Made by a program: the position numbers and the translations under genes. Of a stretch of DNA of 64,000 nucleotides, positions 5,186-42,700 are shown piece by piece. Position 1 is the stretch's first letter; each line of letters opens with the position of its first letter. The notes below the pieces were generated by a model that was given only the letters and a program-made list of their open reading frames with translations, did no database searches and had not been told where the DNA came from. The stretch is from Agelas oroides (lineage: Eukaryota; Porifera; Demospongiae; Agelasida; Agelasidae): the NCBI GenBank assembly GCA_949130485.1, contig OX422184.1, positions 5,312,655 to 5,376,654 of the forward strand, written 5' to 3'.

Positions 5186-5212
5186 TGTGGTATTCGGGTG
5201 CAGTTCTGTCTT

Positions 5213-10984: not shown

Positions 10985-11110
10985 TCTATCAACTGCAGAT
11001 TCTGCAAAGATACAAGTAAAACCAGTCTTTATTGTTCCCAAGTTCAGACTTAGTTCCTACGAGTTTTCTTTATCTCCAAACACAATTCATTATGGAAAGT
11101 GACTAAAAGA
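10985..11110 (+). mobile_element. LINE 3'-end fragment (A)
   Basis: Translation contains KPVFIVPKFRLSSYEFSLSP, the same C-terminal motif as in fragment C (KPVFVVPKSRTSS at about 12730). It marks the far C-terminus of a non-LTR retrotransposon ORF2. Severely truncated. Confidence 0.5.
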
Positions 11111-11164
11111 AAGAAATGTATATAATAATGATGTGATGAATACTGTCCAATCTGCCCATTGGAG

Positions 11165-12460
11165 TATGCATCTAGATTTGAGCAAGGCGTTTGATTCCAT
11201 TGACCGTGAACTTCTCCTAGCTGAGTAAGCTTGAGTCGTACGGAATCTGACAAAACAGCCTCCACTGGTTCCCAAACTATCTGACTGGAAGAAGACCGAG
11301 AGTGTTGGTCAATGGTACTGTGTCAACCTGGAGGCCAGTGGAAGGAGGTGTTCCGCAAGGATCTATCCTGGGTCCACTTCTTTTTGGCATCTTTGTGAAC
11401 GATCTGCCTGTGAAGATCAATCAATGCTCAGTCAGCCTCTATGCCGATGACACTGCACTATATCACTCCAGCAGGGACAGTGCCAAGCTGAAGGATACTC
11501 TGGAGTCAGCCCTTGACGGAGTTGCAAGTTGGGTTGACAACAATGGTGAACGTTAAAAAGACCCAAGTCATGTTTTTAGGCAGAAGGAGTAGAGTAGAAG
11601 AAAGGAAGTGGAACATGCCTTGCTGGTTCATCAAGGGGTGACCTTAACTGCTGAACCCAAGTTCAAGTTCCTTGGTGTTATAGTAGACAAGGACCTGAAT
11701 TGGAGCGAACAAGTCACCAGCATAAGGAGGAAATGCCTGGCCAGCCTGGCACAGCTAAGACGAATATTCCCAGCAGTCCCTGGTATTATTGTACAGTACG
11801 CTGGTCCTTCCCCACTTGGATTATTGCAGTTGTGTCTGGGGTACATGTGGAGTGAACTTGCAAATGAAACTAGAGAGATTCATAATTATGCAATGAGGTT
11901 AATAACTTCTGCAAAACCTAGGACACCTAGTGCACAACTCCGATCTGAGCTGTCTTGGATGTCCCTACAGGACCGGCGAGAAATATGCAAATTTTATCGA
12001 AAGTCCATCTATTAGCTGTCTACATGGGAGAGCTCCTGCATATCTATGCTCCAAGTTTAGTAGGAACTGGTACCGCAACCTCACAGTGGCAATGGCGCTC
12101 CTCCCGTTCCCCCCCCCGTACCTACAGCAACAAATCATCACTTATGAATGGACGTCCACAACACACGGTTGCACCAATTAAGCCCATGCTTGAACACTGA
12201 ATATAGGGAAACTAGGGGCGCTAATAATATCTATCTACAATGTCCTCACATGAACTTCTACAGAAAGTCTTTTGAATTCAATGGGGCTTACCTATAGAGC
12301 AAACTTCCCAGGGCTCTCAAGTCAATCCGGACTAAAGAAACATTTAGGCAGGCTCTTTGGGAGCATCTGCTTCAATCTGCATAAACTCTACCTATTGTTT
12401 TGTTTTATTGTTTTGTAACCCACCCTGTTTTGTCTTATGCCTTGGAATTTGTGTTCTGTA
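11165..12460 (+). pseudogene. Decayed non-LTR retrotransposon reverse transcriptase (B)
   Basis: Broken pieces of ORF2 in changing frames: DLSKAFDSIDRELLL (about 11170), GVPQGSILGPLLFGIF then YADDTALY (YADD box at 11440-11451), then FKFLGVIVDKDLNWSEQV (11658-11720) typical of the Jockey/CR1/L2 side of LINE elements, and a C-terminal LPRALKSIRTKETFRQALW near 12305. Several frameshifts and stops make it inactive. Both ends are truncated; it lies between two other LINE 3' fragments. Confidence 0.8.
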
Positions 12461-13090: not shown

Positions 13091-13537
13091 AATGTGCCTT
13101 ATTTCCAAAAGCGTGAGTTTTGGTACTAATATGAGCAGACCATGAGAAGAAGATTCATAACATGAATCCTCTTCTCATTGTTGTTAAGCAAAGCACTTGG
13201 ATACCATTTAGAATGAAGTCTTGAGAAAACTAGGTGGGAGCTATACACAAAATACCACCCTTTACTACTCTTCCATTATAAATGAACCCTTGAAATGAAC
13301 TGAGTTGGAGCTATATACACGCGAATCTTTATTTAGCTCTCCCTGAACATTGTATTCTGCACTGCGGTCTAGCCCCACCCTCCCTGTGCATTCCTGTGGG
13401 GTTTCTGTGACGACGCTCGCAGGATAAAGTGACAGCGAAAAGTAGCACCTTACCGAAGTGTAAAGTTATTGCACTTGCAGCTTCTCATTGTGAGACATCA
13501 CTGTGGGACGGAGCTACAAAACACTGAGCCCACGAGA

Positions 13538-16500
13538 ATGAAGGCAATTCTCGTGGTATGTGCTGTGCTGCTGGCGATGCTAAGCGTACGCATGCGATGC
13601 AGCGCTCAGTCACAATCCACTACGTTGACGGGCCAAGGTGGGTCGCAGAACGGGAAGCTTGGTTGCGGTGAGAAGCAGCTAGCATTGGAACTGCATAACT
13701 TCTTGCGCGCCTCTCAGTGGGCCGCCAATATGAGACAGTTGGTGAGTGCCTAGTGCCGTGAAATAATTAGCTACCTATATATACCTTATTACACGAGTTA
13801 GCGTGCAATATCGCGAGTTATTGCACGAGTGGGCGTGGTATTTTCACGAGCCGAAGGCGAGTGAAAATGCAGTCCACGAGTGCAATAACCGCGATATGCA
13901 CGCTAACGAGTGTAATAAAATGTTTATTATCCATTACTACAACAGCGTCGTGTCTCAACTCACACAAACAACCGAGTAACTCGCTGTTCGAACGCACCGG
14001 TTCTAATTAAAGCACACCGTAGTTGCTAGGATACCGCGTAGTTCCAGCCGTGCAATAACACCCGTGCAATAACTACCCGTGCAATATCGTGTGATATTGC
14101 ACGGCACGGGAATAGGAAAATACTGTTGTAGAAATATCAACTGGATAATAAAGTTATTTATGTCACATGACTGCATTTTTCTGTACTCACTGGTAACAGT
14201 TCTAATCTGACAAACTTACGTACTATACATCTTCAACATTCAATAAGCATGCAGTAAATATATTTTTTACAGTGTACAGATTTTCCGTGTAGATCTAAAT
14301 GGTTTTGTCTTGATAAAATGTGCGAGTGTGTTACGTCGACAGTATCCATGGTAACATAACGCGGCGTGCAGCTTCTCGTGCACAACCATAGATAGTAGAG
14401 TGCAATGCAGCAATATATGGTAATTTCCAGGAAGAAGCAGCCCATAGTTCCATTGACTCCATTACTAATTTGTGGAAATGCTCTTGAAAGGGTGAACTCC
14501 TTCAAATATCTGGGGGTTTGGATCACTAAAGACCTCACTTGGTCGAGGCATATACATGTGACTGAAATCTGCACTAAAGCCAGGAGAGTTGTCGGCCTGA
14601 TCTACAGACAATATTACCAGTATTCCACTCCTGAAACTTTAAATCAGCTGTATGTTTCTTTCGTGAGACCGCATCTCGAATATGCTGCCCCTGTATGGGA
14701 TCCCCATCTTCAAAAGGACATTGACAAATTGGAGAAGGTACAAAAGTTTGCACTACGAATGTGCACAAAGAACTGGATGGCTGGCTATGACGATCTACTT
14801 ACTTGTTGTAATATCCCCTCTCTGAAAACCAGGCACTTATATCTCAAATTAGTTTTTTTGTACCCCAGTCATGGGGTCTCACATCGTAACTTATCTGTAA
14901 ATATTAGACATGGTCACCCAGCACTCTTATGTAGGCCCTTTTCTAGAACACAAGCTTATAACATGTCCTTCTTCCCCCACTCAATTTCTGTCTGGAATAC
15001 TTTGCCTGTAGATATTGTCACTTCACCTACACTTTGTTCGTTTAAGTCTCGTCTGAAATATGTACTATGATATTGAGTGTATCACCTTTAAGTTAGTGTA
15101 TTCTTCTGGGTGCATTACTTATTAGCTATACACGCTACTCTTGTACCCTTGCTCTTTAAGCAAAATTTTTATATACCAAAAAAAAAAAAGTACTCTACTA
15201 TCTATGGTGCAACCAAGGGGAAACGAGGTGTTATTCGCACCTGATCATTTTCTTGTTAACTTGCTAAACGCTTTATGAGCTAGCCGCCATGCATTCTAGT
15301 GTGACTCCAGTGGTATTAGTGAAGTTATTTCTCGGGTATTAACAACCATAATGTGCAACCATGCATTCTAGTGCTATTTATAGCGACTCCGGTGGTAATT
15401 AGTGAAGTTATTTCTCGGGTATTAACAACCATAATGTGCAACCATGCATTCTAGTGCTATTTATAGCGACTCCAGTGATAATTAGTGAGTTATTTCTCGG
15501 GTCATAACGTTTTGTCTTCATGCCATCATAGATAGTATAGCCCCAGGAACCTAGTATAGTATAGCCCTCCTCTACTATCTATGGTGCCATATACCTAGGG
15601 AACTAGGGAAAAACTTCATCATCGTCGGGCAAGCCTGAGCGAGCAGCACAATGATTTATGTCAATGCACACAAACCACAAAACAGCAGCAGTGTTTGTGT
15701 CTGCTGTCAGTCAGGGTAGCTACTATGGCTACACATGCGTGCACTAAGCTTCGCACCCAAATCATGAGCTGAATCTCTGCCGTTTACGTATGAGCGCTAC
15801 TAGTTTGTGCATGGCCCTCACTTGAAGCGACCTCAGCCACCATGCATACTGTCTGTGAGTATCGATAGCTAGTCTGCCGCAAAGTTTGTCTGTCATGGTC
15901 CGTATTTGAGGTAGCTTACACAATAAACCAGACGCAAGTTGCCATGCGTGCTTCAACTCGAGTCGCCTTCGCTCCGGGCCTCTTTCACGCCGACGCTGCA
16001 CTCTGGCAGTAGCTCTTCACTGTCGCTCGAACTCGTACTCTCGACTGAGCTCCCGAAGCAGTGCACATGGACGTTCAATCTTCATAAAACATTTTAAACG
16101 CGCTCGTTCGAAACTTACAGTAAGTGGCCACCAACAAGCATATATACACTCGCGTGTGCGCGCAATGCGGTCTAGTTAGTGTGGGCTCAGTGAGGCTCGC
16201 CCCAATATGTCTACTGTCTATAGCTCTTTCTGCGGAAAGGAACTGAGACTATTAGCATTGCTGCATTTGTCTTTTTTTAATTTAGGAATGGGATGAAGGG
16301 CTGGCCGACAAAGCCCAAGAGCATGCAAGAGCCTGTGTCTTCAAAAGCAATGAAAATGTGACAAGAAGCAATGGAGATCGTACAGGAGAGAACATTCATT
16401 ATATCCAAGATCCTATGGCTTCAAAGACATCAAGACAGGCAATAACAGAAGCTGTCCGAACATGGTATTATGATCTGCTAAGCCAGAATCATGTACAGGT

Positions 16501-19500
16501 GAGCAGATTGTTAACCACGTGCTATATAACTCACACCAATACATAGGTATAGTAAAAGAAAATACTGGTAATTATGACTAGCTAACTAAAAAATACAAAA
16601 ATGAAAATTTCAATCACAAGCTTTAACTGTCTTATAATTCAGGTGTAATGGGGGTTTACCTATATATGTCACTTTTATCCCAGTCACCGTCAACTTACGC
16701 ATGCGTAAGTTGACGGTGACTGGGATAAAAGTGATATCACTGGACTGAACTTCAAGTGGACTGGACTGGACTCACAAAAACGTGCAGGAACAAAATTAAG
16801 CACACACAAATACCAACCACAATGGAACATAAAATTTCTGTGTGTCTGCATGTATATTCCTGTCCTGCTGTATCAATGGGAGTCTGATGATTGAAATGCT
16901 ACTTGTTATGTGTAACCGACAGATCTCTGTGCTCGCCTCATTCCCAAGCCCCGCCCAGCTTTTTATTGCTTGCATTACGTGTGGTGAACATCTGGAAAGG
17001 AGGCTATCTCTGTCCGTTGCCTCTAACATTTTCATTTGAGTTTTGTGTACAAGGTTGGTTATATAGATTGTGTGCATGACGAGGGACTTGCATGAATCCT
17101 CTCCCCATTGTACTCCACTCGCTCGGTCAAGGGTTCAGACTACGTGGGTCACCCTGAATAGACTAGCTAAAGTAAGTATTTACTCATGGCCAGTTACAGG
17201 ATGTAAGTACAGGGCGAGTGCAAGGGTTTAGATGACATCCCACAAGTCCAGTACCGGTGGTGAGATCTGTTGTTGTCAACTGCTGATGTTTTTACGTATG
17301 CTCAATTTTGTTTCTGGTGGTTTAGTAACTTATTTCTGATGTTTTTAGGGGTCCAATCCAGTCCACTTCAATCCTGTGAATAGTGACATCTAGTAGAAAA
17401 CAAAAATAAAAACAACAACAATTGATTACTCTGTATTTGTTGTAACTTCTGTAGTTGGTGTGGGCTGATACCTATCTAGTGGGCTGTGGAAGCTACCGCT
17501 GTCCTCGGCTAGCACTGCCAGGGGGCCAAAGAACCAGTGCAATATTTGTCGTCTGCAACTACGATCCCTCCTATATCCAAGATGTAGAGACCTACATGTC
17601 AGGGATATGCTCAGAATCATCATGTCCTTCCAGTTCAAGCCACTGTGTTGATTTCACAGGCAGATCTAATCTGATCGAGGTGTTTGATGATGACACAACA
17701 GGTGGTGGCCAGTTGTGTGGTAAGTTTGCTTATCTGATTTCAGAAGGAGGATTCTGGGTGCGTAGCGCTGGTTCAGAGAATATACTGGAGAGCTGAGATG
17801 CTCAGTCAAGTGGTAGTATCAGCCTCATTCCAAAATATAAAGGGGCACTATATGCATGTATGCAACATTAGCATGTTTCGGTTTCATCATTTGAATCCTT
17901 AGTGTATGGACATGGGCATAGTACTTATGAGTTTATACGAAATCCGTTGAGGGAGTTGATACAAATTTCCTTCAACACATTACGGAACTGGAATGCATAA
18001 GTAATGTGTATACATTGGTGGTACTTGATATGATGAGATTTTAATTGCTGTTCTTCTGTATCCACCATAATTGAAACATTGTAACCATAGTTACTGTTAG
18101 CTCTACATAAATAGGTGCATGCATCTGTGCATAAGTACATGTATTACCCATATGTGGACTACATGTGCACATGCAGCGTGCATGAGAACGTGACCTTGTT
18201 TGTATTTCGTAGTTATGTCTAAGCGATCTATGTTTGTAAACAACTGAAACATACACAGTGTATGTTTAATACTGTGTTCACAGATACTTTTGCATCAAGG
18301 TAGAGTAACACAATACTGATTTGCATGTTTGTACAGTGCATGATTGTGTATAATCCATCCCATAATCTATTGTACTACTACAGCTACTTCAAACATGCCA
18401 CCAACAGTCACATGTGAAGATACAAAACCCCCCTCAGTCACTAGAAGTAAGTCGATCGATTATCACAGGGAATATATAATCAGAGTATGAAATGATATTA
18501 CTTGGATTTTTAGACTTTCAATTTTACAGTGAAGTAATATTATCGTAAGCTCCTGAAAAGTGGGGAAGGGGTGTTTGCTCGAATATTCATGCAGTCTCGT
18601 GCATACGCCCTCAACCCCACCTGGTTCCTCGCGATGTTACATGTGAGGTAGACAATCACGATGACTGCCACAGCTTTCTAGAAGAACGGAAGCTTCGCTG
18701 AACATGTACTGTGGGAAATCAGCTGCATTTGTGTTGATACTAAGCCGAGAGGGAACTTACAGTACTAGTACTAATCATATGACTATATCAAAGTCCATAG
18801 TTACTAACAGCAAGAAAGAGAAATGGGGCAATTTTTGGGTTGTACCACTATTTAGACATCTTGGGATGTGGTTTACACTTGCATTGGAGGGTGGGGAGTA
18901 TATCAACTGAATTATTGTATTATCTGTTCTTTATATATGTACTTTTAGGAGTGTACCACAGTACTCCCCGGTATGGCAGCTATGCTGGGGGGACCAGAGT
19001 TACCATCAAAGGACAAGGTATGGTTGATTTTATAATTCAATAAAATAAGATTGGTTTCCGTGTCGTTACTGAATGCTGAATGATATGGTTTTAGAAAAAC
19101 GTTTCTGTGTACTCACTAGCAGCAGACAACACCTACATACCACAAGCAACTGTCTAACCACCACATACACATAATGAATAGCACTGAAGTGCTTAACCCT
19201 CGGCGCATAATATTAATGCAGAGTCACAGGACATAGCTAAGTAGGTGAAGGAAATTCATGCGGTATGATGGTACACTAGATAGCTAGCTGAGACTACACA
19301 AAGTCGTACAGGATAACAGTGTCCCAAGTTGTCCTACTAGCCCTTTACCTTCCCCCAACAAACCCCTCCCTAATGTAGTGAGCATGTGTAGTGAGTAGGG
19401 AATCTGTGGGATACTCCCTGGTAATCCTGGATATGTACCATGCCTTACATACATATTGTAGCAGTATTGACCATGCCTGTACATACATATTGTAGCAGTA

Positions 19501-20313
19501 TTGAGCATGCATGTACATACATATTGTAGCAGTATTGAGCATGCATGTACATACATATTGTAGCAGTATTGAGCATGCATGAACGACCTTAATTGCGCGT
19601 GGGCGTACCCGAGACTCAGAACAGGAAAAAGAGCGAAGGTAGCGGCCAACTTATTACATGTATCTAGTTATCGGGGGTTGAATATCATACACACCGAGCG
19701 TTGAACGTATAGTTGGTTGAACAACGCGCAAAACGTTGCCTTTCTGTTTTAGTCCTATTTTGATTACGTCATGCTTACGTAGAAAATACGATACATATTC
19801 GCGTTCCGGGGGAGCCTGGGAACGAGGCTACAACTAGCGCTCGCCGTGGCAAACGAATCGCAGCATAACTCTTGAACGAAACGTTCTTGGCGAAATCGCG
19901 AAATTTAAACACATCCTCGTTCGGTTTGAAGCCTATCTGCGTCCAAACTTCAGAGATTTAGCCGCCAGGTGAGCCAAGCTAGTTGTAACAGACAGACAGA
20001 CAGACAAACGAAGTACTGTAACCCTCGCTGCGCATGCGCGCCGAGGGTTAATTATATAGACCCTATTTATCCGCAGGTTTCAGTTCCAACCAGTTTGATG
20101 GGGGGAATGAGGTGACCTTTGTGAGCACTGATGGGAGATTCAGGATGCCCTGTGATGTCATTCCTTACTCTTCTTCCAGTGACACTATCATCTGTGACAC
20201 TAGGTGATTGTCATACAGTTTTACCACACGTTTATTTGGAACTCATTAGCTAAATGTACCTACACACATGCACGCATGCACGTACATGCACACACACACA
20301 CACTCACACATAT

Positions 20314-21737: not shown

Positions 21738-24700
21738 ACAACTTCTCAGACCTACTCCAGTACTTGGATATAGTGTATTCAATATGGAAATTACTTCTAA
21801 TGATGGCTCTGGAGCACAGGAAGTGGACACTCGATCATGTGGACGACACTGCAGATTCATTGTATGTACTCCGCGTTAAAACATAGAATAGGCTCTGCAC
21901 CAGCAGAAAGGGTGTGGCAGGGGAGGTGGGTGAGTTCATACACAGGGTGAAAAGTGCAGTAACTACTGTACTTGGCTGTAGAAAACCTTTGCTCAGCACT
22001 GGATGTGCCCTTTCTCTTCTCGGTTAGCAAATGCTCCTTTCATCTTGTAGGGTTCCATTTCTTGCACAGTAGATCAGTTTTCGGTCTGGACAAGCATTTG
22101 CTTATCAAGAGCCCTGACTTTTAAATTGCATCTTGCAAAATTTGGACAGATGTGTGAAGTCAAACTTGCCTGTTGTTGAGAGTTCAGACTGAGTACACTG
22201 GTACCGTTCATAGAAAATATTAGGCATAGTGTACTATGGGGAAAATGAAAGGTTTTGAAGGAAAGTTTATATATTAATCTTGTCTCCCTACAGTATCATG
22301 TTTGGTACACTCCTACCATTAGGATGATAGAGCCTTTGGCTTCAACACCTGGTAAGTGACTGTCTTTTAGCTAGTGTACCTTTTACGTAGTTTGCCTAGT
22401 TTGCCTCGTACTACGTACACAGCTCCCTGCAGTTTTTTTTCTCTCAAGCTATCTACTACAGTAAAGAATACCCATCACACTAGTCCTAGTCCCATCAAGT
22501 ATATTTTGTAGAGACATTTAGTGCATAAGATAGCAGTCCCCATTTCCCAGTCACCCCAGTGCAGCTGATGACGCCATGAGGCCTGGCATTGGCCAAAACA
22601 CTTCCTGCACAGTGTGTGACTTCACATAACATCTAGGCCTATTTTTTTTTAGGGAGATGTGGTTTGTTGATTGTTCATGCAGTACTAGATACATCTCTGT
22701 GTACTAGCGATGTGATTATGCATGTGTGTTTTATAGGAGAACTTGTGCAACTACAAGGGACACTGTTCACTGCTGCGTTTGAAGAGAGGAATGAAGACGG
22801 TGAAGTCAACCCAGACTACTTTACTCGTATTCTTGTGGGAGGAATGTTCTGCAATGCCATGGATGAAAATGGAACACTGTAAGTTATAGGTTTGTACAGT
22901 GCATCCTCAGTTGTACAAACACCTTCGTTTATGGTACTCTTGGGAAGTGTTTAGATAAGTGAATTTGTTCAGATAAGTGAAATTCATCCAGTAAACATCA
23001 CATTATATTGTGATTGTCCACTTCCGTAGCGCTCCGTATAGGATCTATCTGTAGCCATGAGCTTGCAAAGATCCAGCTTGTCTTCGATAATCAATACATT
23101 TGCAGCACTCTGCATTGCTTTGATGATTGGAAGGTGCCATTTTGCAAGAATCTGCAGTTGTCACAACCCACGTGGCTTTTGTAAATGTGGGTGTGGCTTG
23201 TGAAATTTTGGGTTCAGATAATCGAGGTGTCGGATAATCGGGACTCGGATAACCGAGGATGCACTGTATAAACTTAACAAAGAATATAGAACTGATGTAC
23301 TGAAAATCACACTTATTTTAACTAGTTTCAACATTGTTACACATTGTAGCTACCTAGCTACAACCTGCAATTTTCTAAATGCCATCTTTGTTACAGCTAG
23401 CTGCTCAATTAGTCTTGTTTCTCATAATGAAACAAAAGAGCAGAATTATCCTATCATTTCTTGATGAATCTATATGAACTACAAAGCATGCACTAACTAT
23501 GAGGGTTGAACCAACACATATTTTCTCAAGCGTTTGATGTTTTGCAGGCTAGCTTTCCAGTGTGTTATTACTCAACTACATACATTTATAGAGCTGCTCA
23601 AGGGTTGTCGGTGATTACTTCTGTTTTTGTTTCTTGCTGTGTTAAGGTTATTTTTGGGCTGAAAATGTGTTGTAGTGGTGGCAACAGTTTCTGTGTCTAT
23701 TTTCTATACCACAGTGATCTTTTGTACAGTGTTTTTATTGGGGTTAATTCACTGTGTTTCTGTGAAGTTTTCACTTTGTTGAGCTGCATGGCTTATACTA
23801 TATTTCCTCTGTCCAGATATGGCACCACTCTGACGGGCACAAATGTGGGTTATGTCACCTGTATGCCCACCACTGGAAACAGAATTGGTAAGGTTGATTT
23901 CACTCCTCCTAGCAACCTGTGTTCATGATATATAGATTCAAGCATTCATGGCAGTTCTCACAGCAAGGAAAAGGTTTGACTCATGTCTGAGAAGATGGCC
24001 CAAAACTGACTGACCCTTGACATTCCAAAATGTTTGAATCTCTATATTATCTACTGTTATTTAGTTAAACTTTTGTGTCAATGGAATATGCAGCATGCCT
24101 GTTTATGCTCTGTTTCTTTCAATCTCAGGTTCGATGAATACTAGTTTCATTTTGGCCAAACGTGGAGCGTAAGTAGTTGAGTCATTGTGTAGTTCAAACA
24201 AAGGCCACCTAGTGTGGCCTTTACACTTCATAGGTACTGTATATTTGACTGATGAGTATGAATGTAATGGGATGGATGTCTCTATACTATTGTTGCTGCT
24301 ACATGCAATGGAGTGTGCATGGGAGGATATTTGTTTTGACAATTTCAGTACTACGCCTGCATGTTATTTGTGCTATGTCTATTACATCAAGCATTTTTCA
24401 CTTTCACATTGTTTGTATACAGCTCCTACATTTCATTTGGTGAGAACCTCCTTGGCTTGGATAACAAGTTGCAGCCATACACCTTCCAGACACATGCAGG
24501 TGAGTACCTGTCCATATTTGCATGAAGTATGCAGCAAAATTATTATAGAGTATATATACGTACGTATGTATGTATGTACCGGTATGTATGTATGTAACTA
24601 TGTATGTATGTATGTATGTGTGTATGTCATCCCATGTGTGTCTGGCATATTCAGGTAGTATGTATAGTGTGGTATCAGGTAAGACAAATTGAGACATGCA

Positions 24701-27700: not shown

Positions 27701-30700
27701 AGTTTGCAAACCTCCTCTACAGTCCGGCGGAATTACCTCATCTTTGCGACTGTTCATCTCCACGTAAGAGCGTCCGAATTTACTTGGTGTCCGAAGCCCC
27801 TCACCCACACACAGAAATGCATGTCTTTTGGTGCCTCTGGTACATCAAGAACATTGCAATACTTGCTCGAAATAAAGCAGACAGCATTTAGTTTTGTAGT
27901 GCCTTTGGACAGAATTGTCTCAGGCAAATAAATATTCAGAGATACTTTGGTTCATGTTATGTGTAGACATACCGCCAGTCTGGTTTGCGGTATGCTAGTA
28001 GGTGTCTCAACCTAGATTGTGTGAGTAGATTTCACCAATCCACCTGGGGCATGCATATCACTGTATAGGTTGGCAGTTTTGTATGGAGGCTCCTTGATGG
28101 TTGATTGTTGACTACAATCAAAAATCATTGGCAGTCAGTTCATGTTATTTGCTTCCTCCATCCAGGTGGGCGTGGTCTACTTCGTGAAGTGTGGACTAGT
28201 GGATCACTTGATTTGGATGATGTAGAACAGCGGCCACGTGCAGAGAACACTTCTCCACAAGAGAGTTTATATCGTGACCATAGATTCCCAAGGGAATTTG
28301 GAGAAAGAAGGAATTTTGTCCAACGACTCAGCGGATTCTTTGTACCCCCACTTACAAGCCTCTATACCTTTTCAATTCGATCTGATGACCAGAGTCGACT
28401 GTATCTGAGCCCAAATATGTCAGCTGAGCACAAACAACTGATAGCATATGCCACACAATGGGCAAGAGGTCGTTGGAATTATTGGCCTACTCAGACAGCA
28501 GATCCTGTTCTTCTTGAAGCTGGTAAAGCTTACTACATTGAGTCTCTTCTCAATCAATTTGGTTATGGATGGGACATAGGTATCTCGGCTAAGATACACA
28601 ACCTCAGTTGGAACTCGTACCCTTTCAATGGAGACAATGAGGTGCAGAGGATCAACATCTCTTCTCTTGTCGTCAAGGAGGAACATGTAAGCAATAGTAT
28701 GTTGTGGTTAACAAAGAGCTCACTGGTTTCTGCACAAAATACGGTTATCAAGAATAGGAGTAGAATTAAACTAGCTGTTTCAGAGTGACTTACTGTTGGC
28801 TTACAACTGATCACTTCCATCTCTCCATAAGCCACTATTGCAGAAGAGGGATGGATTACATAACTAGAACAGAAGTGTGTGATATCCAGTTCTCAGGTTC
28901 TCAGTATAGCAGAACAGTTTAAAGCCAAATTGAAAACAAAGCACAGTGTCATAGATTTATCTGTGGTGTGGCTTTAGTAATCACTGTGGTATGATGTTGT
29001 ATGATAATTATACAGTACCTATTGTGTGGCTTTTATCACTCATTATGACATTGTGTACCTACAGGAAATCATTGTTAGTGCTCTCCCAGCTGTAAGAAAG
29101 ATTATTGTCAGCCAGCTTGGTGAAATGGACCAAATCAACTGTGAAATATCTGTCAACATATCCAATGAAGCCATCTTTTTAATGCCAGAGTCTACAGCCA
29201 ATGATGTTGCAGAAATGCTGAATAGTCTGCAGAGCATACAACGAGTTGGACGTGTATTAGTTCAAAGAGAAGACAACAGAAATGAAACAGGGGTGATTAC
29301 AGTTACTATCATTTTTCTGACAAAATTTGGAACTGCCGAATCTGATATACCAGAAATAACTGTCAACCCTACTCCAGCTTCATGTGGGAACACTAGTCAG
29401 ACTGTGGAAATTGAATTGGTCCAGGAACTCACAGTTCCTGAATCATTCAAAGTAGGCTTCAATGACAGCAATCGTCAACAAAGGTTTACTAATTCCTTGC
29501 CACTAAATGTCTCTGCAGAAGAAGTGGAAGCTGAAATCACCGACTTGTTTACATGGCAGTGTGAAACAACCCCTCCTCGAGGTGCTGTACTTTACAATGC
29601 TACTTATGAAACTAGCTCAGAAAGTACACGAGACAATATGACCTCATTCTGTGGACACTACTCCTTGAAGAATCCTGGAATTATTTGGCCTGGGGATAAT
29701 AATGAGGATTCAACTGTTGCAGTCAGTAGGAATGGATACGTAAGTGTCTTTGCTGTCAATTCATTAGCTTAGCAACACTTTTGATTTTAAGTAGCAAGAT
29801 GCATGTAGAGAGGCCAGGGTAGAGGACTGGAGGTAACCATGGAGTGTATTATGTTTTTAGGGTAACAGACAACAGTTATTTTTGGCAAATGCAAAGGTCA
29901 CAAGAAACATCAGCTAACTGTAGTGTACCTAAAGCTAATGTACATAAATGTAGTGGCTTTTCACATTTGTCATATACTGAGTGTAGTGGATTGGTTGATA
30001 ATATGTTTGTACCTTCCCTCTCTATAGATCTGCTTGGCTTACAGAGGTAATATTCCTCGGCTATGGGCTCGGACCGTATTTTATGCTGAAGGTTCTGCAT
30101 CTAGACTTCAACAGAAAGGCCCACAAGATATTGACCTTCGTGAATGCCCTAATTGGCCTGCAAACGAGGGCTACAGTAACTGGCAGCATGTCTGCATCAA
30201 TCTTCAGTCTTGCCTTAACACTATTGCACAAGGAATATCTCATGAGATCTCCAGGATTTGGTTTGACAACACAGAAAACAGTTTCTGGATTGACGAGTTC
30301 ACAGTTTCTCAAGCACAGGTTTCTGGTGAGTGTTTATCAGCCACAGAGACTCACAGCCACATATAAAAAATGTCTGGGAGCATGTGCATGCAAGTTGGAA
30401 ATTTTGTTTCAGAACTGAGGAAAACTAACATTACATATTGGGGTGCTCTAAACCACAGCATCATGAATGGATCCAATAACGTCATTCCAAGACCTCCCCT
30501 ATTTTGCTATCCTTTTGCATTTACAATAATGCATAAAAACAGAAGAGGTGCAAATAAATAAACCAACAAGCAAACAAACAAACAAACAAACAAACAAACA
30601 AAAAAGAGAAGGCCTGGTCTCATTTGTCATGTGAATATATGTAACGTGGACTTAGGGTGAGAGGCGCTAGCCTGAGAGTAAGTTTCTTACTAGTCAAGAT

Positions 30701-33700
30701 GAGTACTTTCAACCTTGCGTACATCTAAAGCCCAGCCCAGCAGTGGAGTGCTCAAACAGTGCATTATACCCCACTTCCCCAATGTCATGTCCACCTTGCA
30801 TCCACCTGACACCAAATGAGAACAGGCCTTCTTCATTTGTCGCCACACTTCTGCTTCTGTAAAAACTAGGCTTCTGCTACTAGGCTTCAGTTTTGGGGTC
30901 ACTGGTTCGCAAAGCTAAGCATATACCATAGATCTGGAAAATTTCGTTGCAAAAATGTTTTCGTGGTTTGCGTAAATATTTTAAAATGGATAGTTATTAC
31001 GGTCAGCACATTTCGTACACACGGTTTCACAGCACAGCTAGCTAGTTATTTTGTGTGAGACGGCCTCTTCTTTGATAACTGCAGGTGACTTGTGGCTAAC
31101 ACGTGACAACTTTCTTAGTGTCCGATAAATCATTCGTCTTTACTGCCACAGCACTTACCTACAATGTTCCCCGGTTCTCTTCCACACACAAGTAGTTCGC
31201 CAACAGCTGCGTGGTGGCCTTGAACGCAGCAAGCTGTTTGTTCTCCATGTTTTCTTGGCATGTGTAGTCTTGTTCATGATCACTAAACCTGGGAATGTAG
31301 AGTAATACTGTTAAAAAATTTCATGGGTATCCGAGACCACGAAAATATTTCTACACAAAATATTAAAACATGAAAATTTTATAAAACGAAAATTTCCAGA
31401 TGCATTTTAGTATATATATATCAGACTAAATACTTGTACATTTAGTTCAATTCTACTGACATATTTTTGTTCTTTTCAGTCACTCAGACAGCATCTCCTG
31501 CTAGACCAGGTTCAGTCACTGTAAACTATGTTAATGTGATGGGAGGACTCCTTGATCAACCAGTACTCAGCAACTCCTCAAGGCCAAATCAACTTGAGCT
31601 TGAGCCAACAGAGTCTGGGTCTGGCTCAGGTTTGAAACCTAAAGCTGTGGACTCCTCTTCTGACCCAGATTATGTCATGATCTGGGGGAGATACCGAGTC
31701 ATCTACACCGTCCATGACTGTGGAAACGGAATGTCTCTGTTACAAGGCTTGTACCAGCTACAAGAACGTGATTCCCAAATTGCACGAGTTAGAACTAAAC
31801 GAATCGCAATGGGATCTCCACCTGTATCTGGTACGTTTGGACTGAGATTTGGTGGCCAGAGAATTCGAAATATTCCGTTTGATGCGTCTGCTGATACTCT
31901 GGAAATGCTGTTGGAAAACAACTTTGTTGATGAAGGAGGTAATTACATATTTACTTATAGATATAGATATCTATAGGTTTATGATAATGCTGTTATATTT
32001 ACTTAAGGTGTCTTCAACAGAGGTTGTGTATAGTGCATGATGGCCATCTAGAGCGGCAAAGAGTTGTATAGCATATCGCTTAAATCTTACAGTACACTTG
32101 AGCTCTTTGTAAATGACCCATCAGAGAGTACAAACACATTCTCCTCCTATGCCAGGTTTTGAAGTTACCTCCACTGGTGCATGCGATGGATACCAGTGGG
32201 AGGTGGCATGGGAAACCAAGGGTGGAGACCGCCCTGCAATGCAAGCCAGTGGAGAGGACCTGAGGGGGTCAGAACCACAGATAAATGTTGAGAATGTGGT
32301 TGATGGTGGAGTGTGGCTCAGACCAATAAGAGGTGACATGCTGCGATTGCCCGAGTATAAACCACAGGCAAGTATTGAGCTATATGTGTGTTGGTGTACT
32401 GCCTCATTGAAATCCTGTGATTCTGTAATGTTTCACAAGTGAGAAAGTTTTGTGGTATTAATTAAGTACTTTGTAATCTTATGGTTGAGCATGGGTTTAA
32501 CACCATCCTCAGTTTTCATAGTCATCACTGTACTTAGGATAATTAAGTGTCCCTGAAGTTCTTCTCATTATACTGTTGCAGTTGTTCCCTGTCATTATGC
32601 TGGTTTAGAAGTCGTATAGCCTTGAATTTGAATCATACACTTTCACATTCCAGGTTGAGGTGATTCTTGATGACATTCCCTCTTCCTGTTGTGGCGGCAA
32701 CTGTGCCTTCAATTTCATTGAAGAAGCAACTGTTAACTCCATTGAACCCGATGAAGGACAAGGTGGTACCGAGGTTATCATAAGTGGAAGTGATTTTACT
32801 ACCACAGTTGGTGACATTACTGTAGCAATTGGTAGTGCTAACTGCATGGTCACATATGCAAATGAGTCTCACATTGTATGTACAGCTGGTGGTCATCCTG
32901 CTGGACAATACAAAGTCTCGGTTCACATTCAAGGCAGAGGGTATGCATCCATGAATGAATCAGTCTGCTTCCACTACCTGCTGAGCATTGATTCTGTATC
33001 ACCACAAGTGCTGTCAATTGGTGGCAGTGAGAGAGTAGTCATTTCAGGCAATGGCTTCATCGATTTTGTCCGTTTTGATGTTGGTGAACCATACAGCACA
33101 TTCCCCTGGTTTGAATCTGGCTTTGGCATACCAGACACTAAGCTTGAAGACATATGCCCTTACTTCGAAGGTGGCATCAACTTTCAGTTTCCAGAAAACT
33201 TTGCCAACAGAAATAGAACTTTGAACTTTACAAGGTTTAATATAGATGGTATGAACCAAATGAATTTCAATCGAGTTAATGACAGTGATAGGGATTTTTC
33301 TTCACAGACTGCCAATAGTAGAGATATATCATTTGAGACAAATAGATTCCATTCCTTTCTTCGATCCCTCTACTCAAGATTTCCTGCATTTGCTGAGATA
33401 GGAGGTGCCCCTTGCATTATTGTTGCTGCTAACCTAACACAAATTGAATGTGTAACAGCAACAATCAGCCTGCCAACCAGATCCAATCTAACTGTTACTG
33501 TATTGACAGAAATGAACACACTCGAAGATGCAATAGAGTTTTCAGTAAATGAAACTGCTCTTATTCACATGATTGACCCGCTTACTGGCCCTACATTTGG
33601 TGGTACACTTCTCACCATATATGGCTCAAACTTTCTGAACGATCCGAGTGAGGAAGATCGGGTCAAGGTTACAGTTGGCAATGAGGAATGCATGATTCAA

Positions 33701-36700
33701 AATGTGAATGACACTCACATCCAATGCCTTACATCTCCACATGAACCTGGTTATGTTTCCATATTGGTATCAACAGCAAATGGGGTTGCAGTCTCTCAAC
33801 CAGCACTTACTGCCCAGCTACAGCAGAACACACCACAATCAGGGATGAGAACTGTTTACCTTGGTTCAAGTGACGGTACTATGCCAGATTCAAGTGCTAG
33901 TGGTGATGGAACTGGGAGTGGTAGTGGAAATGTTTCTCAAAGAGGCAGTGGTGATACCTCTGTAAGTGACAATGGTTATGCTTCTGCAAGTGGTAGTGGT
34001 GGTGACGACGGAAGTGGGGAAACATCTGACAGAGATCTGCCCCCATTTCAAGTTTTTCACTATCAGCTTGAAGTAACTGAGATCCAACCTGTGACGGGCT
34101 CTGTCCTCGGTGGAACTGTCATCAGAATCTTTGGCTCGGGTTTTAGCAGGAAACACACTGCTGTTTACATTGGAGTCCACTCTGCTACACTGCTGAATGT
34201 GAATGCTACCTTGATTGAGTGTGATACACCAACCTCTACACAAACTCACACCGTGTACTTTCAGAATCGAGGATTTGGAGGTGATTTTCAGCTAAATAAA
34301 CATTACACAATCTTGTACTGACGGCAGCAACTATGGCCATAATGCTCTGTTTTAGAAGATTCACCATGCACCTGAGTGCTTAGTATTATCTCTAGTCAAA
34401 AACACTGGTAGCTGTAGCTGTCAATACAGGACCTTGTAGTTTCAATATGAGGCTAGTTTAAGTTGGTTGTCTTGAACATAAAGGGTATTTAAACATATGG
34501 TTGATATTTTTACTTCAGTGGTTATTCTCAACAAATTCAAAGTCTTATGCAATAATGGATGTGCTTTTATAGTCAGCCAGCTTCTCCTTACTCCTAATAC
34601 CCCTTAATTGCTCCAAAACACAATGTAAATTTGCCTTGCATATGTACATGTTTATTATGTTGTCTATTGTTTCTCCCCTGCAGTCGGTGGCTATGATTTT
34701 GCTTGGAGCTCAAGAGAGCTTACAATTGAAGTTGGGGACACAGTTCAGTGGGAGTGGTCTATCAACTTCCAAGGAGTAGCCCTGCATCTCTTCCAAACTC
34801 TCAGCAACTTTGAAAGTGATCGATTACAAGGTGGATTCCAAAGTGAACCAATTTCTACTGGATCATTTTCAAATACATTCACACAACAAGGTACCTACTA
34901 CTATGCAGCTGAGCTTGCTCCTACTTTACCTGTGATTCGAGGCACAGTATATGTGCTGAACCTACAATCAAGTGTGGCTAGAATTCAAGTTTTTGTGGCA
35001 GGCTTTGAAGCTCAATACAACATTATTGATGCAGGAGCTGCTTCAGTTTCAGGTTCTGAAAGGAACAGATTAGCTAACAGTTCATCACAAGCCACTCGAA
35101 TCTGTAGTGACATTGAGCTAGATGCAGATTTTTTACATCTCTGTCTGCAACAGTCACCATCTTATGTGTTTTCAGTCTGTCGCACACCCATAGTAAACTC
35201 TGTATCTCCCCGAGAAGTAGAACTTGAAACCCTCATCACAATCTCAGGCATTGGGTTTAGCCAGACTGAAGCACAAAATGTTGTGAGATTTGGAAATCAC
35301 TCGTGTGATGTAGTAAGCAGCTGTGAGACTCAGATTCAGTGCCGGCTAGATGACTCCAATTTTCCACCTGCTTTTATTGAGTTACCCCTGAGTGTGAATG
35401 TAGATGAGCTGGGAAATGCACATGTGCAGAGACCAGATGAAGCCTCTATAACTATCATACCTACCATCACTGATATCAGTCCAACACAGGGCTCAATTTT
35501 CGGAGGTACTGATATAGCCATAGTTGGAACAACGTTTCCTGATAGTGGACTACAAGTATGGATTGGAAGTTATGCTTGTGAGATCAGGTCAATCAGCTAT
35601 ACTCAGATCTGCTGCACTAGTCCTCAGCTAGATTCAAGTTCAAATCTAGACCTGAATGTCACTGTTTACCAGAACAATGCCTCCAGAATAGCTGCATGCA
35701 ACATAACAAGTGGTTGCATTTTCCAGTACTCTCAAAATCATACGCCTGCCATTAGTAGTGTCTCTCCAACTACCCTAAGAGACCCAGGAATCATTACACT
35801 TGATATATACGGAACAGGATTTTCAGCTACCCCAAGTGAAAACGAAGTCTATGTTGGGCAACACATTTGTGAAGCAACCGATTCAAACTCAACCTATGTG
35901 ACATGTGAACTTGACCCTCTACCAGCTGGTGAATATGACCTCTCACTACAAATATGCATGCAGATTTCCAACTGTACCCGGTGCCAAGGAAATGCTAGCA
36001 GCAGCCACATACTCACAAGTGTAAGTGAAGTCTACAATGTGACACCGTCCACTGGCAGTGTATTGGGAGGTACTGAGCTAACAATCAATGGTGTAGGATT
36101 TCACACAGACACTCAAATCAGTATTGGTGGCAGCTCTTGTGTGGCAACATTCACCAACTACACAACAACTATTTGCACAACCTCTGCTCAACAGTCTGGA
36201 ATGTACACAATTGCACTTACCTCTGGTGGCATATCATTTCCACAGACACTATCATTTGAGTACTCCCAAAGCAGCACTCCTCAGGTAACTGCAATAGCAC
36301 CTTCCAGAGGTCAACAGGGACAAATGGTTACGATTTCTGGAACCGGGTTTTCCTCAATTTCTGGAGACAACATTGTTAGAGTTGGTGGATCACAATGTGA
36401 AGTAGATTCATTCAATGAAACCACTATTCAATGCGCACTTGGAGCAAACTTTGTTGGAAACCATGAAGTGCAAGTCACTGTTAGTGGGGTGGGAAATGCA
36501 GAGGGTGATGTCTCCTTCTTTTATACATTAGAAGTTTTCTCCATTAGTCCGGTGAAAGGTAGCTTAGCTGGACTCAATACAATGACAGTCAGTGGAGTGG
36601 GATTCAACCCAAACCAAATATCCATTACAATCTGCAATCGTGAATGTCGACTCTCCACAACCGTACCAACTTTGAATGAGGTTCAATGTATAGTTCCCTC

Positions 36701-39700
36701 ACTTAGTGACATAGCATCCATTGTGAATGATTTTGAAGAATGTAATGTGAGTATCGAGAGTCTTGGCCAAAGTATAACCCTACCCAATGCCTACACATTC
36801 CCAAAAAATCTGACTGCTGTGGTTCATAGTATCAATCGCACCAGAGGTGGAACACAAGGTGGATCAAGACTTTACATATCAGGTGAAGGTTTCACAAATA
36901 CCGCCAATGTTACGATAGCAGATATTGAATGTGAAGTTCTTGAACAAGATGTTCAGTATATAGTGTGTGAAACTGGTGCAAGTGGAAGAACTGTAAGAGC
37001 CCAAGTACTGGTTTACATTGAAGGTAAAGGTTATGCCTTGTCAGAAGGGGTCAGCTTTTGGTACGTTGACCTATGGAGCTCAAGATTTACATGGGGAGGA
37101 GGCCCTTTGCCTAGAGAAGGTGATTTTGTGGTAATTCCTGAAGGGCAGACTCTAGTCCTAGATACAACAACACCAGTTTTAGCGTACCTCTTGATTCAGG
37201 GAGGTGAATTGATTTTTGATGATGAGCAAGAGGACAATGTGGTCCAGCTTCACACAGAAGGTGCCTTGATTGTTGACAATGGAAGACTTCAGGTCGGCAC
37301 CAATGAAAGTCCTTTTCAACATAAGACCCAAATTGTACTTTATGGCCATGTCCTTTCAACTGAAATTCCAGTGTATGGAGCCAAGACCTTGGCTGTTAGA
37401 AAGGGAGAGCTTGATCTTCATGGAAAACCACTAAATGTAACTTGGACAAAATTAAGTCAAACTGCATACCCCGGTAATACCACCCTTCATCTCCAACAAT
37501 CTGTTGACTGGGAAGTTGGGGGGAAGATAGTGATTGCCTCAACCAGTTTCAGCCAAAGGGAGAATGAAGAGTTGGAAATCACTGCAGTTGATGAGACAGG
37601 GACCATATTGTCTGTCTCACCCCTAATTCAGTATGAACATATATCAATGCAGCAGGTTATTGAAGGCAGATACATTGATACAAGTGCAGAGGTTGGGTAC
37701 CTCACCAGAAATGTTATTGTGCGTGGAAATCAAAATAACGACACTGTTCGACAAGTTGAAGCCTGTGAGGAAGAGTTCAGACCAGGTCAGTTTGAAGTTC
37801 AGACTTGCTTTTTGGGACGTTTCGGAGCAGAAACTGTTGATGATCAGTTTGGGTCACAGATCATGATTCATGCTGCTGAACAGAATACTGGAGATGTGAT
37901 TGGAAGATTAGAGTATATAGAGGTTACCCATGCAGGTCAGGCTTTCAGACTAGGGCGCTACCCAATTCATTTTCATTTGAATGGAAATGTTAGCGGGTCC
38001 TACGTTCGAGGTTGTGGAATTCACCACACTTTTAATCGAGCTGTGACCATACACGCAGTCGACTACCTACTTGTTGAGAAGAATGTTGCCTACAACATTC
38101 TAGGTCATGCATATTTCCTTGAAGATGGAATTGAGCAGTACAACATCATTCAAGACAATCTCGGAATATTTGTTCGAGCATCGAGCAGTCTTCTGAATGT
38201 AGACATTACACCAGCCACTTTCTGGATTGTTAACCCAAACAACATTGTCAGGCGAAATGCAGCTGCAGGTGGCACACACTTTGGCTTTTGGTATCGCCTT
38301 CCCCAAAATCCTACTGGTCCCTCTGCAACAACATCTGTTTGTCCACGAAACCTTCCACTGGGAGAGTTTGCAAACAATACAGCTCATTCCTTTGGCTGGT
38401 ATGGACTGTGGGTGTTTCCAACCTACACCCCTAGAGTTAGTGGCAGATGCAATGATGAAGAACACACTCCAGCTGTGTTTGAAAGCTTTATAGCATGGCG
38501 ATCTGATCGAGGTGTAGAATTTGCAGATTCGGGATCACTACAACTCAGAGGCAGTGTTATGTTGGACAACAAGCTAGCTGGTGTTGAAATAACTCAACTT
38601 GAGGGTGTTTGGGGTGAGAATGGTCCCTTGATTTCTGACACACTCATAGTTGGACACAGTGAACTCAGTTCAAATGATAACATCTGTACCGAGTCAGGTA
38701 TCAAAACTCCACACAGCTACTTCCTCACCATATCTGGAGTCACTTTTGTCAATTTTGATAGATCAGGATGCTTTGTAATCCAAGCTTGCTCTCACTGCAA
38801 GGTATTCCAAGGAGGATTTGAGACAAGATATAATAACATCAGATTGGTGAATTCCAGTTCCCAGCTGACAAAATGGCAGTGGCACTCTGAGCACGTACAC
38901 AGGGACATGGATGGTACCCTTACGGGAAGACAGCAACCTAGTCTACTTATCCCTAGCTACGATCTCTTGCCCCCAGAACATTGCCAAATTCACCCTGCTT
39001 CAAGTTTTGGAGCTGTCAATGGAAGTGTATGTAATGGGCTACTTGAATATGGCAGGTTTGCACTTTTTGACCCACTTCCAAGCAGTTTGGAGTTTGCCAA
39101 TGCCAATTTATCAAATGAACATGGCACTATCATTCTGGAATATGTGGTAAAACGCTTACTTGGTACAGGAGCAGGCTATATGTCATTAGTACAACTGAAT
39201 CAAACCTATCATCTACTCTGGCCTGATGGACAGCACTTTACAAACATCTCTTACAGTGAACTGTTCTCAGGATTCATGTCAAATGATTACATTATACTGA
39301 GCCAACCATTTCCCAGATCTCTTGATTTTGTCAACATTGGTGGTGTCACCACCCCATCCAATGCAACTGCATTAGATGACCCTACCACTGCTAGACGGGG
39401 TGACTGGTACATCAACCAAAACAACACAGTTTTCTATATAATAAAGAGGCAAACGGATGACCCCCTGAACTTTCCTGTTGGATTCAGCTCATACACTTGC
39501 TTCTATGAAAACTGCATCCCTCCAGCACCCCCAACACCTCCTCCACCAAGACCATCAGGCAGACCAAATGTCACGTACAACTGGTCTGATGTGACAATTT
39601 GGCCGGGAGAGCAACTCCCACGAGCTGGCGAAGATGTCTATATCAACTGTAGCTTATATGTTCTAGTCAACAGACAAATCCCTCGTCTGGGCACCTTAAC

Positions 39701-42700
39701 AATCTGTGGAGTGCTAGAATTCCCCGACACAATGAACCACGTCATTGAGGTAGACCTGATCATCATCCAGGGAGGGAGGCTAGTGGCTGGCTACCTTGAG
39801 ACACCTTTTACCAGCAGTTTGAGAATTGTGCTCCATGGGAATCTAAGTTCACCTGAGTTTTATTTTGCCAGGGGTCCTCCTCTTGGTGCAAAAGCAATTG
39901 GTGTGTTTGGAGAGCTGATCCTCCATGGTAGACATAGATCACACACCTGGACTAAACTAGCTGCAACAGCTATGGCTGGAAGGAATCAAATTACAGTCAT
40001 TGATTCTGTCGATTGGCAGCCTGAAGAAGAGATTGTCATAACTTCTACTTCTTTTGAAGCAGGTGAAACTGAAGTGCTCAAAATCCAGAGTGTATCAGGA
40101 ACTCGGATTACTCTGAATGCCACCCTGGCGTATACCCATTCAGGAGAATCACAGACACTTGGGTCTTATACCTATTCCATCCAAGCTGAAGTTGGATTGT
40201 TGACCAGAAACATAGTGATTGAAAGTGGGGATCCTATCCTCACTGATGAAGAAGATTTCGGATGCAGGGTTCTTATCAGCAACTTTATTGATGAAGAGAC
40301 TTCTCAGCAATATGTTGGTTCAGCACAAATTGGAGGTGTGGAGTTTAAACACTGTGGCCAGTTAGGGTATACAGATTCTTTTGATCCAAGGTTTGCCTTA
40401 GCTTTTCTCAACCAAGGACCAATATCAAACTACAGCACGTACGTCCAGAACTCAAGCTTCCATGATGGATACAACACTGCAATTGGTGTGTTTGGAACCC
40501 GTGGACTTCTCCTTGACAACAACGTAATCCACAGCACAGTTGGCACTTCAGTATGGGTAACTGGCTCTCACCACATTGTGAACCGAAATTTAGCATCCCT
40601 TGCAATCTTCCTAGGGACTTACAAGGACAGAAATGAACCACTTAATTCACTTTGGACAGCCAACTTTGAAGTCACTGAAGCAGTGAACTTGATTCTAACT
40701 GGCAATGTTGCTTCAGGTGGAGCTAGAGCAGGCTTCCACACAAATGGAGAAGAGTGTACAACTGCTTCGGATGGCACACAGATAGCTGACAATGTTGCTC
40801 ACTCAACACTCCATGGTATACATCTGGGGTATAGAGACGGCTATGCATCTGGCTGTTCAAAGTTGTCCCGTTTCACACTCTTTAGCTGCTACCATTATGG
40901 CATATTCAGCTATGGCATTGCTGGAATCTGGGTCACAGAGGTCAAAGTGATCAACAGCTTTGTTGGGGTATTTGCAAGTGTTATTGGCCCATCATCTCTT
41001 TCCCACACAGTGGGCAACAAGGAGGTGCGCATTGAAAACTCCCTCATTTTATCAGCAAGCAATGAATTCAGCTGTAGTCAAGATGTTGTTGTTCCAAGCA
41101 TTGCTGAACATCCACGGTCCCACAGAGGTCTCAGATCACCAACTGGAGGTCATGTAGGGGCTGTAATACCAAGCTTTGTGTCTGGTCGTGGGCTCTTTCC
41201 AAAGCAACCATGGTTCAATGTTGATGCATACCCTGCAGTGAATGGTTCAACTACCATACAAAACGTCACTTTTGCCAACTTCAGGCAGCGATGCAATGCT
41301 AAGAACGATGTTGTATTAATGACCAACACTCAGTCAGAGGACTGCAACTATCCAGTTCATCTTAAAGAGGTTCATTTAGTGAATGTCACCTCTGATTCCA
41401 AGTTATTCAATCACAATCCACACCTGAGAAGTGTCAATCCATCTGACTGTGTAGATATGGACTGTGATGGTCTAAAGCATGTTCTTCTTCGAGATGAAGA
41501 TGGCAGTTTCTCAGAAACCTCAGGCCCAAGAACATTCATATCCAGGGCTGAATTTGAATGGGATGGTGATCCACGACGTGGACTAGGAGACTACCGAATA
41601 CCCCGCACTATACTCACCTACGCCAATGGAAGCAGCATCAATGTTAATCAGATATATCCCAAAAAAGGAATTGTCCGAGGAAATGAATTTGGAAATGATT
41701 CTCAGTGCACATTCAACGATACATGGAACATGTACCACTGTGAGGGAATAGATCATCTCATGCTGGTTATGGAGAGTCTTGATGCTGACACTGAAGTGAG
41801 ACGTTTGTCACCGATCACGCTTGCATCAAGTGGGTTTATTGACTTGCTTAATGGTCCTCAAGACTTTGGTTGGTGTGGTGGGTATACCTGCCAAGAGAGA
41901 ATCTCAACTTTTTACGGAATTGTGGCTTCAGAACACATGTACACAGTTGCACTCACAAGCACCAATCCACAGAACATGGCTTTGCACCTACTCCACTCCA
42001 ATGAATCTCAAGTAATCGTTGTTGGGATTGTATACACCAATCCTCAGCGGCTAGATGTTATTTATAATGGCGACTATGTGATACCAAACAATGCAGAACA
42101 AACATCAAATGGTAACTTGCGATACTTGCAAGGAAGTCCTGATATGTTTACACCTTCACTATCTGACAGTGCAGGGTCAAACTATTACGATCGTGACCTG
42201 AAGAGGCTGTATATCACAATCAGAGGAAAGTTGCCTTACAGAATTGAAACCACCCCTGTGATTCAAGTCTCACTCACTCTTGAAGTTACAGTTGATGAGT
42301 TCTTTGGTGAACGTCTTGTACAGAACTTAGCTTTCTTACTAGGCATAGACCAAAGCAGAATCAGGATAGTCAATGTTGTGAGAGAAACCACACGTAGGAA
42401 AAGACAAACCAGTTCACAGGGTGCCACTTTCGACATTGAGATTGGCAACCCACCTCCAATTCCAGCAAATGAAACAGCAGTTCAAACAAATGGCACTGAA
42501 AATGCTACAACACTGAATGTAACAACTGCACTCACCTTTGAAATGCTTGAAGAAGTAGCAACAACAGTAGCCACAGTAATTCAAAATGGAGAACTGGCCC
42601 AGGATTTAAATGCCACTGTGACTTCAGCTGCTATAACAAGTCCAGAACCACCTCGAATGGACCCAACAAATGGAGTCAGAGCCACAAACATGACAGGTGG

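Follow-up and report, generated by a model that had tools for sequence, protein, structure and literature searches.

A predicted gene of the sponge Agelas oroides with a CAP domain ahead of a fibrocystin-L-type surface protein

PKHD1L1, or fibrocystin-L, is a human hearing-loss protein, and in the usual form of this family a signal sequence leads directly into the first IPT domain (IPT1). PKHD1L1 of the usual form is not known to carry a CAP domain. CAP domains, for their part, are mostly found as small secreted proteins that stand alone. In this study we analyzed a stretch of 64,000 nucleotides, hereafter called the window, from the genome of Agelas oroides (GenBank assembly GCA_949130485.1, contig OX422184.1, positions 5,312,655 to 5,376,654, forward strand). 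On its plus strand resides a predicted gene of 21 exons in which a CAP domain and a protein of the fibrocystin-L family are very probably fused at the level of gene structure, as judged from the genome sequence.

Several features of the closest described systems are useful for comparison. The usual PKHD1L1 comprises a signal sequence and IPT domains, of which there are 13 in the vertebrate protein, and carries a cytoplasmic tail of 8 amino acids (PMC6707252). The N-terminal repeat of this protein is designated IPT1 (PMC11043200). Members of the CAP superfamily carry the motifs HNxxR and G(E/Q)N(I/L/V), and one of them, SmVAL4, lacks the zinc-binding histidines but still binds sterols (PMC4118828). 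In GLIPR1, the zinc ligands are His79 and His137 (PMC6900432).

Domain structure of the predicted gene

All searches described below were conducted with a 259-Mb assembly of 141 contigs, in which the window lies inside a 26-Mb contig (C2). The window gene, called copy A because a second copy exists, had been proposed by a first-pass annotation as a model that closes exactly at 15,189 nt. The rebuilt model yields the same figure, with 21 exons encoding 5,062 amino acids and a sole stop codon at the terminus. The cumulative phases after exons 1 through 5 are 0, 0, 1, 1 and 1. Canonical GT-AG boundaries are present at 19 of the 20 introns in each copy, and intron 19 (from position 32368 in copy A) is of the GC-AG type in both.

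The CAP domain is distributed over the first three exons. Exon 1 (13538..13741) opens with an ATG, encodes a signal-like start plus the first part of the CAP domain, and ends in phase 0. Exon 2 (16286..16498) encodes the middle of the domain with its GEN motif, and exon 3 (17455..17719) encodes the end of the domain plus a Cys-rich hinge and ends in phase 1. The Pfam CAP profile (PF00188) matches residues 50-175 of copy A over positions 1-117 of its 117 (E 1.3e-14), with a score of 55.5 bits compared with a cut-off of 21.1. The maximum Kyte-Doolittle hydropathy of any 8-residue segment encoded by exon 1 is 3.62, which is signal-like. These findings uphold the earlier proposal of a full CAP domain in exons 1 through 3, preceded by a putative signal peptide.

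Exon 4 (18384..18446) is a symmetric linker of 63 nt, with phase 1 on both sides, that joins the CAP exons to the first TIG domain (TIG-1). TIG-1 starts in exon 5 (18949..19017) and continues in exon 6 (20077..20203), both of which are supported by splice sites, phase and Pfam, and its match ends in exon 7 (21750..21861), which also encodes the next residues. An in-phase joint (0, 0, 1) through a short linker exon had been predicted for this region, and the splice sites and phases on which that prediction relied are indeed present.

A search of solved structures with the CAP part returned 10 sequences at E <=0.001, and the best relative was GLIPR1 (E 2.2e-9), whose alignment extends into the Cys-rich hinge. 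The full-length CAP match is accompanied in copy A by the sequences HNFLR, of the HNxxR class, and GENI, of the GEN[ILV] class. However, the positions that correspond to His79 and His137 of GLIPR1, mapped to the printed chain via a 15-residue offset derived here, are occupied by Ser and Asn in copy A, and copy B carries the same two residues there. A further difference from GLIPR1 is that the CAP domain is attached to a predicted receptor of ~4,800 amino acids. The lack of zinc histidines is shared with SmVAL4, although that protein is small and stands alone. Because SmVAL4 binds sterols without these histidines, a CAP domain of this kind retains a possible binding role.

Ordinary CAP genes are also present in this genome. 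One such gene on C23, called C23a, has FRH and HYTQ at the positions of the GLIPR1 zinc histidines. By visual inspection, this gene has phase-0 exon breaks just before an [I/E]W motif and just after HYTQ, like copy A, and its exon-1/2 border corresponds to that of copy A. An AG acceptor is present at the position of the exon 3 start of copy A in seven of the seven ordinary CAP matches inspected. Toward its 3' end, where the Cys-rich hinge is encoded, exon 3 of copy A is unlike C23a. A protein search of the genome with the CAP region yielded 13 matches, including an opposite-strand set upstream of the window, and a Pfam CAP search yielded seven, a list that includes exon 2 of copy B and misses the CAP exons of copy A. 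Four CAP-type genes or gene fragments are clustered at C23:5566992-5585313.

The remainder of the protein resembles PKHD1L1. Within the first 1,270 amino acids of copy A, Pfam detects the CAP domain, two TIG stretches (of which the best was located), a PA14 domain encoded by exon 15 (28166..28686; residues 568-674, E 1.1e-8) and a GLEYA match that falls short of its cut-off. Exon 20 (32654..34280) contributes four TIG stretches (E 5.1e-47) along with two sub-cut-off matches. Exon 21 (34684..44435) contributes seven TIG stretches, two G8 stretches (E 1.3e-62) and two CEMIP_beta-hel stretches (E 5e-66), and also matches three other families, two of them above their cut-offs by whole-protein score. 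The 13 TIG stretches of copy A (2 + 4 + 7) equal the number of IPT domains in the vertebrate protein. The two G8 domains, the beta-helix repeats and the single transmembrane segment near the C-terminus are likewise shared with PKHD1L1. This segment, also encoded by exon 21, was assigned by hydropathy, with the strongest value of the protein (2.62) at residue 4871 of 5,062, followed by 2.15 at residue 3 and by 1.97 at residue 4850, just before it. By the same measure, the cytoplasmic tail has 172 amino acids in copy A and 176 in copy B, in contrast with the 8 of PKHD1L1. The sequences NPAF and NPY were noticed by eye in this tail. The other major difference is that a CAP domain and a linker precede TIG-1 in the window gene.

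An intact second copy and a paralogue that lacks the CAP domain

Copy B resides on the minus strand of the same contig (C2:5273854-5307230), arranged head-to-head with copy A, with 18,961 bp between the two exons 1. Its exon 1 is located at C2:5307027-5307230 and its exon 21 at C2:5273854-5283629. All 21 exons are retained, as are all 20 junctions in the same phases, and the encoded protein has 5,065 amino acids followed by one terminal stop. Relative to copy A, unequal lengths are seen for exons 7 (+3), 16 (+3), 18 (-3), 20 (-18) and 21 (+24 nt), every difference being a multiple of three. Exons 1 through 6, which include the CAP and linker exons, have the same lengths in both copies.

The equal length of exons 1 through 4 (745 nt) is notable because the introns of the two copies are strongly diverged. 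Four of the 20 introns fail to align at E 1e-5, introns 3, 12 and 20 align over most of their length in copy A, and the others align in part. In the five introns that were aligned globally (3, 7, 11, 12 and 20), ungapped identity ranges from 0.66 to 0.83. The intron 3 alignment carries 18 indel events over 751 columns, and none of its 689 windows of 63 columns equals the conservation of linker exon 4, which is identical at 57 of 63 bases without gaps. Because the entire structure recurs in copy B, the fused arrangement appears to reflect more than chance. In both copies, the CAP domain is predicted to share one reading frame with the receptor, unlike the usual small secreted CAP protein.

Homology between the copies extends ~155 bp upstream of the CAP start codon (13383..13537 in copy A; 83% identity over a 163-column alignment), and this common flank is probably the promoter or 5' untranslated region of a transcript that starts with the CAP exons. 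A second upstream block is shared at 7796-7906 (117 columns). Downstream, homology ends 152 bp past the receptor stop codon, with 98.7% identity there.

Assembly errors can produce head-to-head copies, and the pair might therefore reflect contigs joined in error or the adjacent placement of two haplotypes. This explanation appears very improbable to us. Both copies reside on one 26-Mb contig, and four neighboring open reading frames (ORFs) that were tested are not duplicated, none being found in the 60 kb around copy B. Moreover, a synonymous divergence (dS) of 0.09 combined with strongly diverged introns looks, in our judgement, to be above ordinary allelic difference, and an artefact of this type would still require two origins for the CAP-linker-TIG order.

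A more distant relative offers a comparison for how such a gene begins. A genome search for G8 domains yielded six matches, with two in copy A, two in copy B and two on C6. The latter two (profile positions 1-58 and 54-112) together constitute one G8 domain. The C6 gene, called gene C, aligns with copy A in 12 stretches, ten of them at 29-40% identity and two short ones at 55% and 68%. It shares TIG, PA14-like, beta-helix and G8 parts with copy A, the TIG and PA14-like matches residing in its N-terminal part. In contrast to copy A, its G8 half is split over several exons, and a single G8 domain was detected in this partly read gene.

The start of gene C, with exons assigned by eye, matches the usual fibrocystin-L form. 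Its first exon (C6:589911-589983) encodes a hydrophobic, signal-like peptide of 24 residues and ends in phase 1, and a stop codon in the same frame lies 12 codons upstream. The TIG-1 exon follows after 167 bp with a phase-1 joint and no CAP domain between. Thus, the direct joint of signal sequence and IPT1 is found in gene C and not in the window gene. The same genome therefore holds a plain form, in which a signal exon joins TIG-1 in phase 1, and a modified form, in which CAP exons 1 through 3 and a linker join TIG-1 in phase 1. Within the span of gene C, C6:607053-612521 and 615695-619829 are open in several frames and are probably tandem-repeat DNA.

One gene or two

The same exons could in principle belong to two adjoining genes, with a secreted CAP protein encoded by exons 1 through 3, perhaps with exon 4, and a fibrocystin-L protein starting near exon 5, such that the open junction is accidental. 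The starts available to such a second gene are therefore critical. In copy A, the open stretches that precede exons 4, 5 and 6 lack an in-frame ATG, and neither copy carries one before exon 4. The first-pass annotation had claimed that the TIG exons have no second start, which holds for copy A but fails for copy B, where intron 4 stays open for 47 codons immediately upstream of exon 5, a stretch with four in-frame ATGs. However, the counterpart in copy A of the copy B ATG before exon 5 lies in another frame that quickly meets a stop codon. The copy B stretch reaches a maximum 8-residue hydropathy of 2.0, compared with 3.62 for exon 1 and 3.56 for the signal exon of gene C, which reveals what a normal signal exon of this family looks like.

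Introns 1 through 4 were also scanned for spliced alternative first exons, defined by an ATG, a hydropathy of at least 2.0 and a phase-1 donor scoring 7 of 9. No candidate was found in copy A, and the single candidate in copy B has no counterpart in copy A, so no such exon is common to both. An ATG within exon 4 of copy A was rejected as a possible start because it is replaced by a Val codon in copy B, and because residues 229-330 reach a hydropathy maximum of only 1.36. In addition, a stand-alone CAP gene would be without a conserved end, and exon 4 shows exon-like conservation. Given these findings, we consider two adjoining genes to be quite improbable. A genome search for a processed cDNA copy joining exons 3 through 6 found none, as its eight matches correspond to the separate exons of copies A and B.

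Several observations nevertheless weigh against a single fused gene. Chief among them, the copy B ATGs may provide a CAP-less, moderately hydrophobic start just before exon 5. Copy B also carries poly(A)-like hexamers, with two in intron 3 and four in intron 4. Because exon 4 is symmetric, splicing of exon 3 to exon 5 would also remain in frame. Furthermore, a segmental duplication of two adjoining genes would also have carried both parts, and the signal peptides described here were called from hydropathy alone.

The pattern of substitutions between the copies belongs on this same side. For the whole gene, dS is 0.090, the nonsynonymous divergence (dN) is 0.032 and dN/dS is 0.36. For the CAP exons, dN/dS is 0.66 (exon 1, 0.79; exon 2, 0.86; exon 3, 0.39), a value not significantly below 1 (Fisher P 0.26), and the ratio of nonsynonymous to synonymous differences in the CAP exons compared with the rest of the gene yields P 0.057. 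Because of these two P values, codon-level constraint on the CAP domain is not established, and weak constraint of this kind counts in favor of two adjoining genes. The linker has a dN/dS of 0.70, but its six differences (four nonsynonymous, two synonymous) are too few for a test. Elsewhere, the values are 0.39 for exons 5-7, 0.18 for exons 8-14, 0.51 for exon 15, 0.34 for exons 16-19, 0.60 for exon 20 and 0.31 for exon 21. The highest dN values are those of CAP exon 2 (0.108) and the linker (0.092), compared with 0.032 overall.

The evidence from gene C also has weaker parts. TIG matches on the same strand at C6:598266-599525, inside the unread stretch C6:592901-605999, link its two ends, and gene C therefore likely runs through as one gene. 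Neither the Pfam CAP search nor the CAP protein search found a match on C6, but the former had likewise overlooked the CAP exons of copy A; absence at the level of single exons is therefore weak evidence. For this reason, the better evidence that gene C lacks a CAP domain is the joining of its signal exon straight to TIG-1, rather than the negative searches.

A single gene might also produce two products, namely the complete receptor and a small secreted CAP protein that arises when the transcript terminates after exon 3 or retains the intron that follows it. Genes of the fibrocystin family have many splice forms, and reading exon 3 through its donor yields a short open tail in each copy. However, these tails differ between A and B and are thus not conserved, and neither AATAAA nor ATTAAA is present in introns 3 and 4 of copy A. 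The hexamer scan carries little weight because, in both copies, it likewise detects no hexamer within 600 bp downstream of the receptor stop. Overall, production of both forms seems unlikely.

We conclude that the locus is, with high likelihood, one gene predicted to encode a giant single-pass surface protein of the fibrocystin-L (PKHD1L1) family with a CAP domain at its extracellular tip. This reading, which agrees with the fusion originally proposed, is supported because copy B is intact with the same exons and because the signal exon of gene C precedes TIG-1 in the same phase. The CAP exons occupy the place of the signal exon seen in gene C, and no alternative start common to both copies was found.

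Other features of the locus, proposed origin and possible role

The remaining exons of copy A are all retained in copy B. Exons 8-14 (22294-22351, 22737-22878, 23817-23887, 24129-24168, 24423-24499, 24772-24885 and 26767-26856) belong to the TIG region, and are followed after exon 15 by exons 16-19 (29065-29739, 30028-30325, 31480-31938 and 32156-32367). Intron 1 spans 2,544 bp in copy A versus 556 bp in copy B, and in copy A an open frame on the plus strand (14399-15070) resembles, by eye, the terminal part of a LINE-type reverse transcriptase. More reverse-transcriptase-like fragments were seen upstream of the gene at 11100-12000. Intron 4 spans 4.6 kb in copy B (C2:5300305-5304920) versus 0.5 kb in copy A. 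Elsewhere in the window, a long minus-strand ORF (3635-5221) carries a caspase domain (Peptidase_C14, E 1e-6), and Pfam assigns ORFs within 48138-52950 to a carbon-nitrogen hydrolase (minus strand), a methyltransferase (plus strand) and a cytochrome P450 (plus strand).

The fibrocystin-L receptor family is already known, and what is novel is the N-terminal variant. Among the entries and passages listed in keyword searches of open-access papers, which included passages of PMC13424714 and PMC3390340 and covered no protein database, a fusion of CAP with fibrocystin-L is not reported, and no relatives outside this genome were found in the viral-contig or genome-contig collections searched. The description of this arrangement as a new architecture thus rests on these keyword searches and this one genome.

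The CAP domain was probably gained in the lineage of the window gene. We infer a gain, rather than a loss in gene C, because the usual form of PKHD1L1 consists of a signal sequence and IPT domains. Under this scheme, an ordinary gene for a secreted CAP protein would have supplied the CAP exons, which became attached in front of a fibrocystin-L gene and took over the role of its signal-peptide exon, with the 1-1 linker exon preserving the reading frame. The CAP signal peptide would then bring the protein to the cell surface, where the TIG, PA14, G8 and beta-helix modules may form a stalk that places the CAP domain farthest from the membrane.

The likeliest role of the CAP domain, which we advance only tentatively, would be that of a zinc-free binding head for a protein, glycan or lipid. 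A more speculative and rather unlikely extension is that it acts as a fast-evolving, zinc-free recognition head on a giant membrane-anchored receptor with a long tail, the pair representing two variants that recognize microbes, symbionts or other cells and whose amino-acid divergence per site peaks in CAP exon 2 and the linker.

If the single-gene reading is true, it would show that a cell-surface coat protein family linked to human hearing loss can recruit a CAP domain as its outermost module. With two fused copies and a paralogue lacking CAP in the same genome, a single organism would suffice to compare the gain of the exons, the logic of their phases and what followed from it.
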